Source of the DNA: Chthonomonadia bacterium
GTDB lineage: Bacteria > Armatimonadota > HRBIN16
Assembly: GCA_013314755.1 (NCBI GenBank)
Contig: JABUFA010000013.1
Location: 30,808-94,807 of the forward strand
Reading direction: 5' to 3'
DNA: 64,000 bases
Notes under the pieces: generated by a model
Told to the model about the DNA's origin: nothing
Seen by the model: the letters and a program-made list of their open reading frames with translations, nothing else
The model's database searches: none
Program-made: the position numbers and the translations under genes
Shown here: positions 1,455 to 28,398 of the stretch, piece after piece
How the letters are laid out: each line of letters starts with the position of its first letter
Position numbering within the stretch: position 1 is the stretch's first letter

Positions 1455-1757
1455 TCAGCGTGCTGGTCTGCCAGCTTGCTGGGAAGCCGGAGCCTGTCGG
1501 GACGCTCCCCACAACAGCATCCGCGCCGATTGTTCGTTGCCGTATGCCAGTTCGTTGACCAGGAACTGCTTCTCCTCGGGCGTGAGTTTGTTCCAGTCGC
1601 CTCCGGTGCGCCGGGCAATCTCGTGCAGGCGGTCAGCTTGCTGCACCTGCTCTGTGGACAGCCCACCCGAGGCATTGGAGCAGGCACGCAGATTCACCAC
1701 GACCGCCACCCCTGCAAGCACGATTATCAGCACGATGAGCGGTAGACGTGATTTCAT
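1455..1757 (-). CDS. small single-helix membrane protein of the prepilin cassette
   Basis: A 100-residue protein with a basic N-terminus (MKSR), one transmembrane helix (about residues 5-23) and a soluble tail. The tail contains GGDWNKLTPEEKQFLV, closely matched by GDFSKLSPEDQMRVQ in the small protein at 28090-28398. The ATG at 1755-1757 with upstream GGAGAG is preferred over an in-frame start further upstream, which would add a hydrophilic stretch overlapping the prepilin gene. It follows the DUF1559 gene by 17 nt and precedes the glycoside hydrolase. The function is unknown. Three such proteins in this window, each beside a DUF1559 prepilin, suggest a membrane partner of the prepilin. Confidence 0.75.
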   Translation of the reverse strand: MKSRLPLIVLIIVLAGVAVVVNLRACSNASGGLSTEQVQQADRLHEIARRTGGDWNKLTPEEKQFLVNELAYGNEQSARMLLWGASRQAPASQQAGRPAR

Positions 1758-1774
1758 GGTTCGCTCTCCATCTG

Positions 1775-2608
1775 TCACGGCGCGTTGATTAACCAGCGTT
1801 TGGCGTCCAGCATCGCTGCCGGCTGCAGCCACTTGGTATGCCCGTCCGCAAACGCCACATTCGAACCGCCGCTATGTTTGCGCCACGCGCGATTCAGTCG
1901 CTCGTTGTAGTCACCCGGCGGGGCGGGGAGAACAATCAGGTTGACCAGCCAGTCCGCGGAGACCATCGCCTCCGTGCCCCAGCACCAGTCCACCTCTGTG
2001 TTCGCGTAGGTTGGGCTACCACACCACCAGTCGTTCACGTTGGTAAGTCCCTCTACCAGCATGAAGATTTCGGCGGGGGTGGGCACGGCGGCGAGGGCAG
2101 TTGCTGTTTCGGGCGCACCATAGGTAGAGCCCACGGTAATCACTCCCTGCCCGTTGGGCACACCGAAATGGCTGGGATTCCAGAAGGAATTGGCATGAAA
2201 GGCGTTGGGCATGTAGGAAAGGATGCCTGGTTGCCGGTCGGTACCTGCAAAAGCAGAAATGATGCCGGCGTCTACTGTGCCTGCATCAGAGGTGCATCGG
2301 TAGATGTCGCGGTTCTTCAGGTAAGGACCGACACAGCGCACACTGGACCAGATGTAGTGATTGGCGGGCCACTCGCCCCAGCGGTTCTGGTCCACGAACT
2401 CGTTTTTGGGGAAGGTCTCATCGTAGTCCTGGGTGTACATCAACACGCCGAGCGCGAGCTGTTTGAGGTTGCTCAAGCAGCCCGTTTGGCGAGCCTTCTC
2501 GCGTGCCTGGGCGAATACTGGGAACAGTATCGCTGCCAGTATTGCAATAATCGCAATCACGACGAGGAGCTCAATGAGCGTGAACGCGCTTTTCCTGGAC
2601 GTGACCAT
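1775..2608 (-). CDS. DUF1559 prepilin-type protein (H-X9-DG family)
   Basis: A 277-residue protein with a type IV prepilin leader (short basic MVTSRKSA, then FTLIELLVVIAIIAILAAI), a conserved QAREKARQTGCLSNLKQ helix, a central globular region and the C-terminal H-X9-DG motif (HSGGSNVAFADGH). Prepilin peptidase is expected to cut before the Phe. Proteins of this family are abundant in Planctomycetes and Armatimonadota and their role is not established. The start has an AAGGAGG site. A consensus promoter with an overlapping LacI-type operator lies immediately upstream, so the gene is probably induced when the neighbouring repressor binds a sugar. It heads an operon with the small membrane protein and the glycoside hydrolase. 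Confidence 0.9.
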   Translation of the reverse strand: MVTSRKSAFTLIELLVVIAIIAILAAILFPVFAQAREKARQTGCLSNLKQLALGVLMYTQDYDETFPKNEFVDQNRWGEWPANHYIWSSVRCVGPYLKNRDIYRCTSDAGTVDAGIISAFAGTDRQPGILSYMPNAFHANSFWNPSHFGVPNGQGVITVGSTYGAPETATALAAVPTPAEIFMLVEGLTNVNDWWCGSPTYANTEVDWCWGTEAMVSADWLVNLIVLPAPPGDYNERLNRAWRKHSGGSNVAFADGHTKWLQPAAMLDAKRWLINAP

Positions 2609-2622
2609 CGGAAGACGCCTCC

Positions 2623-25921: not shown

Positions 25922-27118
25922 ATGAACCAAAGGCACAAAACATCTGCAACAAGCATGGTGGTAGAGCAACTGCGCCGTGGTGTGCTGACAGGGCGCTACC
26001 AGGAGGGCAGCTGGCTACCACCGGAGCGCGAGCTCGCAGCAGAGTACGGTGTCAGCCGCTCTATCATCCGCCGAGCCATTGATATACTGGCTCGCGAAAA
26101 CCTTGTTGTGCGTTCGCCCCGCTGTCGCCCAGTGGTACGCCGCACGCGGAACACGCGAGCGATCAGACACGATACGCGCAGGCGTACCCTGCAGCTGCTG
26201 CTGTGGCCTGTATCGGTGTTTGCCGGCAGTGCAGCTATCTTGCGCGGTATATACCAGGCTTTAGACCACACCAGCTATCGGCTCATCGTGGAAAGCCCGC
26301 GCTCCGCAGGCTGGGAGCAGATATTACAGGACGAGGCTGTGCTGTTGCAGCAGGTGATTGAAGAGCCCGATGTGGCGGGAGTTATCGTGTGGTATATGGG
26401 GGGAGAACATAACCTGCCCGTGCTTCGACGAGTCCGGGAGGCAGGTATCCCCATTGTGTTCATCGATCGTTTGCCGCCGCGCGCGTTTCCTGCGGATTTC
26501 GTGGGGGTAGATAATCGATATGCTGCCGAGCAGATAGTCAAGCACCTGATCGAACTGGGGCATCGCCACATCGTGCATATTACCAACATGGACCATGCCT
26601 CCACCGTGCTGCACCGCAGGGAAGGTTATCGCAGTGCCCTGCAAAAGGCGGGTATTGCGTTTCGCCCCGAGTACGAGCTGGTGGATACCAGTTCCACAGA
26701 GGAACAACGTGTGCAAAACAGCTGGTATATTGCGGAGGAGATCCTCAACCTGCCGGGACCTCCTACAGCCGTTTTTGCGGTCAACGACTCTACCGCGCTG
26801 AACATTGTCCACGCTCTTCGCGAGAAGGGGGTAAGGGTACCGGAGGATATTTCGGTGTGCGGTTTTGACGGGCTGGAACGATGGATGCCAGGACCACGTT
26901 TCCTGACCACCGCTGACCAGCCCTTCGAGCGCATCGGGGAAGCAGCGGCGCGATTGCTACTGGAACGAATCTCCGGCGACATGGATAACGTCTACCAGCA
27001 TCTCATCTACGAAGCGCCGCTCAGTGTACATGGTTCCAGTGGACGGGCTACCCTCGTTCATACCGATTCGGCTGCCATCACCTTTCAAAACGACCAGAAG
27101 GGGGGAAACATCTCATGA
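25922..27118 (+). CDS. GntR-type HTH / LacI-type sensor regulator (AraR-like)
   Basis: 398 residues. A GntR winged helix lies at about residues 8-75 (EGSWLPPERELAAEYGVSRS), followed by a LacI-type effector domain (VIVWYMGGEHN, ELGHRHIVHIT, ISVCGFDGLERWMPG). The start at ATG 25922 is spaced 8 nt from AGGTG; the ATG at 25916 is possible. The stop overlaps the start of the DUF1559 gene (ATGA). Its architecture matches the regulator at 19552-20700, but sequence similarity is low, suggesting a different ligand. Confidence 0.9.
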   Translation: MNQRHKTSATSMVVEQLRRGVLTGRYQEGSWLPPERELAAEYGVSRSIIRRAIDILARENLVVRSPRCRPVVRRTRNTRAIRHDTRRRTLQLLLWPVSVFAGSAAILRGIYQALDHTSYRLIVESPRSAGWEQILQDEAVLLQQVIEEPDVAGVIVWYMGGEHNLPVLRRVREAGIPIVFIDRLPPRAFPADFVGVDNRYAAEQIVKHLIELGHRHIVHITNMDHASTVLHRREGYRSALQKAGIAFRPEYELVDTSSTEEQRVQNSWYIAEEILNLPGPPTAVFAVNDSTALNIVHALREKGVRVPEDISVCGFDGLERWMPGPRFLTTADQPFERIGEAAARLLLERISGDMDNVYQHLIYEAPLSVHGSSGRATLVHTDSAAITFQNDQKGGNIS

Positions 27119-28002
27119 AACGCTCGTCAACCGCTTTCACGCTCATCGAATTGCTGGTGGTTATCGCGATTATCGCGATACTGGCAGCGATCCTCTTCCC
27201 GGTCTTTGCGCAAGCCCGTGCGGCAGCGCGCAAGGCGAATTGTCTGTCCAATATGAAGCAAATCGCGATGGGCATCCTGATGTACATTCAGGACTACGAC
27301 GAAGCGGGTGTGCCCAAGCGCGCATTCACTGACCCGTCGGCATGGTTCACGGGCAGAGAGATTATTTGGAAGGACCTGGTCATGCCCTACATTAAGAGCG
27401 GAGGACGCCCCTATGATGGCGGTCGTACCTATACCACCCCAGGCGACGGTGGAATCTTCCGATGTCTCGAGAACACCGCCGCGTGGTCCGCGGCTACTGT
27501 GGTTTACTGGGGTGGTTGGGGACCTGGAGTGCCCGGAGACGAGACCTCACGCTATCCGCGCAGCTACGCCCTGAACAACCACGCAGGGCACAACGAAGCC
27601 AACCGTGAGGGCGCCTTCTGGCCCGACTTTGCCAATGGCGTCTTTACTCCTGGCAACCTGTCGCTAATCCAGCAGCCAGCAAGCACCATTATGCTGGCAG
27701 AGACACGCATGTTCTTCCCCGAAATCTGGGGGACCGCTATGGGGTATGCGTGCACCCCGGATGGTATCCCCGTAGGAGGGGTCCCCACAGGTTGCATTCA
27801 GGGGCATAAGAGCGGCATGACCAACTTTGCCTTCTTTGACGGGCACGTGAAAACGATACGGCTACAGCGCTCTGTAACGGACGACCTGTGGGATGCGTTT
27901 GCTCCCAACACCGATTGGGGCGGCGGCTATACCGGCGCACAGGCGCAACAGGACGTGCTGAACGCTATCAACTCCCTTCAGGAGTGGACCACAGGCATTT
28001 AA
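27115..28002 (+). CDS. DUF1559 prepilin-type protein (H-X9-DG family)
   Basis: 295 residues: MKRSSTA then FTLIELLVVIAIIAILAAI, then QARAAARKANCLSNMKQ, with the C-terminal H-X9-DG motif GHKSGMTNFAFFDGH. The ATG overlaps the regulator's TGA, so translation is coupled. The small membrane protein follows after 87 nt. Its globular part differs strongly from the other two copies, as expected if the leader and C-terminus are conserved but the exposed surface is specialised. Confidence 0.92.
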   Translation: MKRSSTAFTLIELLVVIAIIAILAAILFPVFAQARAAARKANCLSNMKQIAMGILMYIQDYDEAGVPKRAFTDPSAWFTGREIIWKDLVMPYIKSGGRPYDGGRTYTTPGDGGIFRCLENTAAWSAATVVYWGGWGPGVPGDETSRYPRSYALNNHAGHNEANREGAFWPDFANGVFTPGNLSLIQQPASTIMLAETRMFFPEIWGTAMGYACTPDGIPVGGVPTGCIQGHKSGMTNFAFFDGHVKTIRLQRSVTDDLWDAFAPNTDWGGGYTGAQAQQDVLNAINSLQEWTTGI

Positions 28003-28089
28003 GTCTGACGCTTGCCGGGCGTCTCTGGCGGAGTGCAAACTAGTCGGGGACGCCCGATATGCCACACTGAAACAGGAGGTACATCTGTA

Positions 28090-28398
28090 ATGAGGCAGCA
28101 ATCCGCTCCTAAGCAAAACGTCTCGCCAATCATAGTCATCGTCGCTGTGCTGGCGCTGGTACTGTTCGTTGCCTGGCGTGCGTGGGTTGCCTTTGCACCG
28201 CCGCGGATAGGCAAGCTACCTCCTCCTCCCACGCAGGATATTGAATATATCAACCAGAAAGCGCGCGAGGTACAGGGGGACTTCAGCAAGCTGAGCCCTG
28301 AGGACCAGATGCGCGTTCAGCGAATCACCCAGGGATTTGGTCCCGCCGCCATCGCCTCAGCATGGCGGAGACAGCAGCAGGGCAACACTGCAAGGTAA
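28090..28398 (+). CDS. small single-helix membrane protein of the prepilin cassette
   Basis: 102 residues. The ATG at 28090 is about 9 nt from AGGAGGT; a longer in-frame start overlaps no signal and is rejected. It has an N-terminal basic segment, a transmembrane helix (VSPIIVIVAVLALVLFVAW), then LPPPPTQDIEYIN and GDFSKLSPEDQMRVQ. It shares PPP..QD with the protein at 19346-19555 and GD[FW].KL.PE with the one at 1455-1757, linking all three. A strong terminator follows, so this ends the third cassette. Confidence 0.78.
   Translation: MRQQSAPKQNVSPIIVIVAVLALVLFVAWRAWVAFAPPRIGKLPPPPTQDIEYINQKAREVQGDFSKLSPEDQMRVQRITQGFGPAAIASAWRRQQQGNTAR

Follow-up and report, generated by a model that had tools for sequence, protein, structure and literature searches.

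What does a sugar-type repressor do beside a prepilin gene? The question is raised by a 64,000-nucleotide stretch of an armatimonadotal genome (Chthonomonadia bacterium, GTDB HRBIN16; GenBank assembly GCA_013314755.1, contig JABUFA010000013.1, positions 30,808 to 94,807 of the forward strand; hereafter the window), in which a regulator with a LacI-type effector domain, a prepilin of the DUF1559 family (PF07596) and a small membrane protein occur together three times (copies 1 to 3). A preliminary description of the window had taken these sets for a modular, substrate-induced pseudopilin system for the handling of polysaccharides, with the small protein as a constant member and carbohydrate enzymes beside each copy. 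The reading that we favour, with a probability of about 0.6, is that each cassette consists of a LacI-type repressor beside its own DUF1559 pilin-like gene and the usual small membrane-anchored partner, the pair probably being shut off until a sugar is present.

Regulator and prepilin genes are linked across the source genome

The source assembly (3.95 Mb, 88 contigs) contains 75 PF07596 matches in a profile search, and the stretches around them hold 76 open reading frames (ORFs) with a prepilin motif, i.e., 74 of the 75 PF07596 places, an ORF at C64:1161 and one of 608 amino acids (aa) at C66:261619 (C numbers denote contigs of the assembly, L numbers examined loci). Gene and small-ORF calls follow simple rules of our own and not a standard gene finder, and lipoprotein starts were recognized by eye or by a short motif. 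The 608-aa ORF is unmatched by PF07596, and the prepilin motif failed to pick up the weakest PF07596 place (C5:74327). On the side of the regulators, 32 PF13377 matches exceed the cut-off (a 33rd, on C3, falls below it and was excluded), and 26 of these places are followed by a same-strand PF07596 match no more than 1.2 kb away, or 27 once the prepilin at C64:1161 is added. The PF13377 protein on C47 has a lipoprotein-like signal start and, as read from its sequence, no helix-turn-helix (HTH); it was therefore taken for a solute-binding lipoprotein and removed, leaving 31 regulators. LacI-type regulators thus stand directly upstream of a DUF1559 prepilin in 27 of 31 cases genome-wide, compared with 0.29 expected under random placement. 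The four exceptions are a regulator on C11 lying downstream, on the same strand, of a prepilin–small protein cluster, one on C40 followed by a small protein and a gene for L-fucose isomerase, one on C50 that precedes an alpha-amylase gene, and one at C5:9133 with no cassette directly adjoining.

Two 325-aa proteins with an ArsR-type HTH (L075:4851-5828 and L075:8103-9080) stand ahead of further prepilin–small protein pairs, so that the type of switch seems to be exchangeable. Three contigs (C26, C76 and C80; loci L050, L090 and L093) end upstream of a prepilin gene in one common repeat, which reads as an ORF starting MMGGGLWLLCVLAVAFF and may be a mobile element or a repeat that broke the assembly.

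Conserved palindromes mark the two promoters of copy 1

Copy 1 carries two near-identical 18-bp palindromes, O1 and O2, one at the promoter of the regulator and one at that of the prepilin (Table 1). In a genome search allowing up to three mismatches, only O1 and O2 were recovered at one mismatch or fewer, where the next site has two; 0.045 sites would be expected at that level for uniform bases. Both palindromes recur at orthologous loci. O1 and O2 are identical in L097, which also keeps the layout of the prepilin promoter, and in the metagenome-assembled genome (MAG) SKYG83, available as two pieces, O1 is exact in L103 and a similar O2 is found in L098, again with the prepilin promoter layout retained. 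In L099, whose sequence L189 duplicates, TGATAGAACGTTCTATCA precedes the regulator, both arms being altered with the palindrome preserved, and a second site is absent; the L100 form is degenerate, with three mismatches. That the copy 1 prepilin is under a private, self-regulating repressor is thus well supported by comparison of the DNA among relatives. A further case is the cassette at C66:286840, where a 20-bp palindrome AAACGTTTCGCGAAACGTTT before the regulator is identical in the source genome, L180, L181 and L184, the regulators of these three loci being 72–79% identical to that of C66:286840. Promoter elements are conserved as well, both boxes of copy 2 across eight aligned loci and those of copy 3 throughout a group of relatives that includes a cassette on C35.

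Two observations concern genes transcribed away from such regulators. A 404-aa protein with a signal-peptide-like start (window positions 3925-5139) is encoded on the far side of O1, divergently to the copy 1 repressor, and the two genes may be controlled together; neither Pfam at E 0.05 nor a sequence comparison with the PDB gave a match for it. A palindrome TAATCAGAATACTGATTA (L031:4252-4269) lies between the regulator on C2 and a divergent gene, and that regulator may therefore also control its neighbour.

The pairing is conserved in the phylum and recurs in a second lineage

The preliminary description had proposed that the association would be enriched in related genomes, and this is borne out for regulator and prepilin. 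PF13377 matches were obtained in 56 of 61 sampled genomes of the phylum, and the best-match locus was taken from the 30 top-scoring ones. A prepilin lies downstream on the same strand in 21 of these 30 loci, spread over 10 families (20 of 29 without the source genome), and two loci truncated by contig ends (L182, L186) and one with the prepilin on the opposite strand (L188) were scored as negative. The same design applied to TetR regulators gave 0 of 30 (Fisher p 3.6e-9), with the reservation that the TetR domain is N-terminal, so that the 1.5-kb flank covers less sequence beyond the end of the gene than it does for LacI.

Among 80 loci with relatives of the copy 1 regulator, drawn from many phyla, the prepilin motif is present in six (L097-L100, L111 and L129). 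Named relatives of this regulator include MAGs filed under Abditibacteriales and Armatimonadetes, which points to Armatimonadota as the phylum. L129 belongs to a genome of another lineage (G061; 4.9 Mb) with 145 PF13377 matches, in which a prepilin follows in 20 of 30 sampled PF13377 loci, 18 of them within 210 bases.

Orthologous cassettes tend to keep their partners. For 10 of 25 foreign cassettes, regulator and prepilin find their best source-genome matches in one and the same cassette (mean of 10,000 permutations 3.1, maximum 9), and these 10 are found among the 11 cassettes with a regulator identity of at least 50%; omission of the duplicate L189 gives 9 of 24 and 9 of 10. Relatives of copy 2 show the order regulator–small protein–prepilin in six of eight same-genus genomes (of the remaining two loci, one went undetected by the ORF rule and one is truncated by a contig end) and in L377, from another family; L376 instead has a small protein, similar in its tail, after the prepilin. 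The linkage therefore outlasts gene order, which accounts for the differing orders of the window copies. Relatives of copy 3 within the genus are nearest to the C35 paralogue, 60% identical to copy 3, and keep the order regulator–prepilin–small protein; two more distant ones (L355 and L356) have no prepilin in the examined flank.

A small membrane protein frequently accompanies the prepilin

The third gene had been described as a constant companion. It is a frequent one, lying within 130 bases of 21 of the 27 linked and 18 of the 49 unlinked prepilins (Fisher p 8e-4), and it is missing from six of the 27. The proteins are about 50–110 aa long with a one-helix or lipoprotein-like anchor, five of these 39 prepilin-adjacent ones having a lipoprotein-like start. 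On the downstream side alone, a small protein follows 29 of 66 prepilins, the count for other genes being 10 of 292. The typical form begins M-K-[KR]-E-[VI]-S-P and has one helix, a proline-rich tail and a C-terminal arginine or lysine, the last of these in 34 of 43 candidates (which include three contig-end repeat ORFs left out of the comparison of linked and unlinked prepilins) as opposed to 17.6% of 455 longer genes. Archaeal pilin N-termini have a similar K-R-x-V-S-P-like start, and an idea of kinship with them was dropped.

At E 1e-4 or better, a profile built from 29 members retrieved 33 places in the genome. Besides the members themselves these comprise four additions: two lie next to a prepilin, one next to a regulator without a prepilin, and one next to neither within the 5.1 kb examined. 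This last protein (L379:3290-3517, on C41) is of the typical form, has no prepilin or LacI-type regulator within that distance and adjoins an alcohol dehydrogenase-like gene. The ratio of nonsynonymous to synonymous substitution rates (dN/dS) is 0.08–0.26 for pairs with finite dS, with low values for copies 1 and 2, which indicates that the small protein is under purifying selection. Of 11 proteins related to that of copy 1, four have lipoprotein-like starts and retain the same TGGDW...EQSARMLL domain, so that the tail is probably outside the cytoplasm. Alignment of 18 sequences related to the copy 2 protein shows invariant tail positions and the C-terminal arginine. A model of the copy 1 protein consists of one helix followed by three helices (predicted local distance difference test, pLDDT, 74.8), and its comparison with PDB folds gave no match with E below 5; a Pfam search of the window small proteins likewise returned zero families over the cut-off.

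Components of the three window cassettes

All nine ORFs of the window cassettes were found again in the gene orders originally given (regulator–prepilin–small protein in copies 1 and 3, regulator–small protein–prepilin in copy 2), including the four-base ATGA overlaps of copies 2 and 3 (19552-19555, regulator and small protein; 27115-27118, regulator and prepilin). Among solved structures, ribose and purine repressors are nearest to the copy 1 regulator. The prepilins have a PulG/GspG-like N-terminus, and the genome holds a prepilin peptidase (A24) gene, T2SSF genes and a T2SSE gene. A model of the copy 1 prepilin shows a long helix and a head (pLDDT 94.7). Its best PDB matches are type IV pilins, with modest Z (4.8 at best, root-mean-square deviation 3.5 over 122 residues); Foldseek returned no match at E 0.001, and a fold name for the head beyond pilin-like was dropped. 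The H-X9-DG motif (TIGR04294) scores 26.9 bits in copy 1, where the cut-off is 19; copies 2 and 3 are unlisted at E 0.01, and copy 2 reads H-X9-DG by eye.

Table 1. Features of the three cassettes, in positions of the window.
Feature	Position	Strand	Remarks
Copy 1 regulator, LacI family, 348 aa	2705..3751	-	PF00356 (56 bits) and PF13377 (149 bits) over cut-off
Copy 1 DUF1559 prepilin, 277 aa	1775..2608	-	PF07963, PF07596, TIGR02532 and TIGR04294 over cut-off
Copy 1 small protein, 100 aa	1455..1757	-	One helix and predicted three-helix domain
Copy 2 regulator, GntR HTH and LacI-type effector domain	19552..20700	-	PF00392 and PF13377 over cut-off
Copy 2 small protein, 69 aa	19346..19555	-	Four-base overlap with regulator stop
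Copy 2 DUF1559 prepilin, 274 aa	18484..19308	-	PF07963 and PF07596 over cut-off
Copy 3 regulator, GntR HTH and LacI-type effector domain	25922..27118	+	PF00392 and PF13377 over cut-off; start possibly 25916
Copy 3 DUF1559 prepilin, 295 aa	27115..28002	+	PF07963 and PF07596 over cut-off; four-base overlap with regulator stop
Copy 3 small protein, 102 aa	28090..28398	+	Matched by small-protein profile, of which it is itself a member; same place in C35-group relatives
Operator O1, TGATAAAATGTTTTATCA	3774..3791	.	23-40 bases before copy 1 regulator ATG; covers predicted -10 box (3783-3788)
Operator O2, TGATAAAACGATTTATCA	2624..2641	-	Directly after copy 1 prepilin promoter, before prepilin start
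Predicted copy 1 prepilin promoter	2647..2675	-	TTGACA (2670-2675), 17-base spacer, TATACT (2647-2652)
Predicted copy 2 promoter	20710..20738	-	TTGACA (20733-20738), 17-base spacer, TACAAT (20710-20715)
Predicted copy 3 promoter	25868..25896	+	TTGACA (25868-25873), 17-base spacer, TATATT (25891-25896)
Beta-agarase-like gene after copy 1	2..1393	-	Runs off the window; whole gene L073:5608-7302, 564 aa; E 9.4e-33 to beta-agarase 4bq2

Neighbouring genes

The beta-agarase-like gene begins 61 bases after copy 1 and is also found downstream in L097, L098 and L100; the copy 1 operon probably extends to it. The gap between the small protein and this gene (window positions 1394-1454) contains, by eye, a strong inverted repeat without a T run, which may adjust how the enzyme is expressed. 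Copy 2 lies beside two genes for zinc-dependent dehydrogenases, and copy 3 is preceded by a WbsX-family gene and faced by a tricorn-type protease gene.

Across the genome a next gene on the same strand is present in 18 of the 27 cassettes and absent from the others. Five of these next genes encode DUF6785/DUF6784 membrane proteins (L033:13520-15529, L076:907-2874, L082:913-2844, L084:5912-7882 and L091:1714-3675), and most of the remainder are mixed or unmatched. DUF6785/DUF6784 is represented by 16 genes in the source genome, with matches in 50 of the 61 phylum genomes, and was considered as a fourth member of the cassette; it was rejected, a prepilin lying upstream (within 1.5-kb flanks) in only 2 of its 16 own and 1 of 29 other loci. 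The name DUF6785 was not found in the literature searched.

Discussion

In the mechanism that we propose, the repressor, a predicted sugar sensor, would hold the prepilin and the small protein off until its sugar arrives. At copy 1, a sugar released by breakdown would bind the repressor and free both operators; the prepilin would then be cut by the prepilin peptidase, and its product would join a filament or pseudopilus of a shared pilus machine. Its variable head could touch the matching polysaccharide or aid export of the co-encoded enzyme, which for copy 1 is beta-agarase-like, while the small protein, in the inner membrane or hung from a membrane as a lipoprotein, with its tail outside in either case, would help its cognate prepilin to assemble. 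With over 70 prepilins in the one genome, fibre subunits might be swapped according to diet. In its widest form this becomes a diet-programmed pilus, in which dozens of private repressors, each guarding a glycan-specific prepilin and its membrane partner, re-arm the fibres for each polysaccharide, a proposal that we hold tentatively and at somewhat below even odds. The linkage of regulator and prepilin, its conservation at orthologous loci and the two conserved palindromes at the two promoters of copy 1 are read directly from the DNA. Sugar induction and glycan handling are suggested by the type of the regulator, by the beta-agarase-like gene of copy 1 and, through analogy, by papers on other phyla.

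Several results weigh against a sugar-switched cassette as a general rule. A LacI-type regulator is lacking from 49 of the 76 prepilin-motif genes, a set that includes the one ORF outside DUF1559 and omits the one weak member. The three-gene set is not constant, and the idea of a constant set was dropped: besides the six linked prepilins without a small protein, just 7 of the 20 phylum-sample prepilin loci outside the source genome show a plausible candidate, which is lipoprotein-like in two. Within the order of G061, only 11 of 29 regulator loci (two each coming from G078 and G089) precede a prepilin, 9 of them within 210 bases. Control by the adjacent repressor is upheld at copy 1 by conserved operators at its own and the prepilin promoter; for copies 2 and 3, where conserved promoter elements are all that was found, no operator was established. 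Over the genome, the best palindromes of 26 scored cassettes (of 27, the sequence upstream of the C64 cassette being too short) exceed those of 233 control genes weakly, with p 0.013 for short and 0.079 for longer spacers, and the notion of a general palindrome enrichment before these regulators was dropped. Finally, clear glycoside hydrolases make up only 3 of the 18 next genes (the agarase-like gene, PF10091 and PF02449), so that carbohydrate enzymes adjoin some cassettes, copy 1 included, and not every one as first described.

These points bear differently on the other explanations. Under the same regulation, the DUF1559 protein could be a pseudopilin that serves a type II secretion-like machine as a dedicated piston, the cargo being enzymes of neighbouring genes, and not a glycan-touching fibre subunit. 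The PulG/GspG-like N-terminus, the T2SSE and T2SSF genes and the beta-agarase-like gene after copy 1 all fit such a piston, as does a type II system proposed for alginase export in the relevant section of PMC13274419; we consider it unlikely, since most same-strand downstream genes are not clear secreted hydrolases and a single machine should have little use for dozens of private pistons. The regulators could also sense small molecules other than sugars, with prepilins serving general attachment or stress. Purine and other non-sugar ligands do occur among the close solved relatives of the regulators, many neighbouring genes are unrelated to sugars, and the DUF1559 genes of Rhodopirellula baltica, in the part of the account bearing on them, are described as solute-binding and as responding to salt, cold and heat (PMC2754498), which also tells against glycan handling. 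Agarase-like, glucoamylase, fucose isomerase and amylase genes nevertheless adjoin such regulators, and pseudopilins elsewhere are alginate-induced (PMC13274419), which makes non-sugar signals in our judgement improbable.

It might also be that two large families were duplicated jointly and remain adjacent by inertia, without functional control. Both families are indeed large, and distances between regulators and between prepilins are uncorrelated among the 27 paralogous pairs (Mantel r 0.02), a result that counts against the favoured reading too and on which co-diversification of the paralogous pairs was dropped. The operators are, however, conserved with changes in both arms, the linkage persists while prepilin and small protein exchange places, the lowest pairwise identities among paralogues are 15–18%, and the same pairing is found in a second lineage; inertia is accordingly a very improbable account. 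A private repressor beside its own pilin-like gene remains the reading that we prefer for these cassettes.

The significance of the pairing lies in what it makes accessible. Families of about 70 DUF1559 genes have been noted without a settled function in the published accounts, as far as the relevant parts of these go, and the pairing of nearly all LacI-type regulators of one genome with a prepilin, together with an operator defined in sequence for at least one of them, makes the purpose of the pilins and the handling of polysaccharides testable gene by gene. The regulators and their enzyme neighbours offer a means to guess the substrates of uncultured Armatimonadota and similar lineages, and a small-protein family is now named for study. 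A diet-programmed pilus, if true, would provide the regulation that has been missing from the picture of fibre-mediated polysaccharide capture in DUF1559-rich bacteria, and the small protein with its C-terminal arginine or lysine would represent a new class of cognate pilin assembly factor.

Comparison with known systems

Large sets of DUF1559/SBP_bac_10 (PF07596) paralogues are on record, with 74 genes in R. baltica, 68 in P. limnophila and 79 PulG genes in Fimbriimonas (PMC2754498, PMC10632474, PMC4072686). They represent the same prepilin family as here, in similar copy numbers, and in the sections of these papers that treat them no private repressor, operator or small partner is described. 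One account, in its passage on the family, names DUF1559 proteins solute-binding, and another has the family apparently restricted to Planctomycetes.

Closer in function are reports on polysaccharide use, cited here for their pertinent passages. In the verrucomicrobial isolate Verruconatronum alginivorum, whose genome has 67 pseudopilin homologues, a PulG-like pseudopilin belongs to an alginate-induced operon and a further pseudopilin is induced, with one replicate per treatment (PMC13274419). As here, a pseudopilin sits in an operon; in those passages, however, which concern another phylum, membership in DUF1559 is unstated and neither private repressor nor small protein is described. Planctomycetes bear pili-like fibres that carry dextran (PMC5394234), and fibres catching polysaccharides have been likened to a "fishing rod" (PMC12078418); this resembles the pilus-like capture considered here, with the fibre protein not named and no regulation described in the corresponding text. 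In Ruminococcus flavefaciens a type IV pilin is 19-fold up on Avicel (PMC3672088). A private repressor is not described in the relevant parts of the dextran, fishing-rod, alginate or Avicel accounts.

A module of repressor, prepilin and small protein was not found described in the literature searched, most subscription journals lying outside its scope. Among small partners, the TfpX/Y/Z pilin accessory proteins of Pseudomonas offer a parallel, a small membrane protein gene standing beside pilA and being matched to the pilin type. The likeness is one of general description; the proteins reported here have the sizes and anchors given above. The nearest regulatory counterparts are autoregulated operons of the RbsR, PurR and GalR kind, which share with the cassettes the LacI HTH and effector domain and, as at copy 1, palindromic operators at the regulator's own promoter. 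The co-regulated product of those operons is a transporter or an enzyme. What was known, then, is the expansion of DUF1559, and what is new, on the literature searched, is a repressor operon of classical type with a pilin as its standing product.

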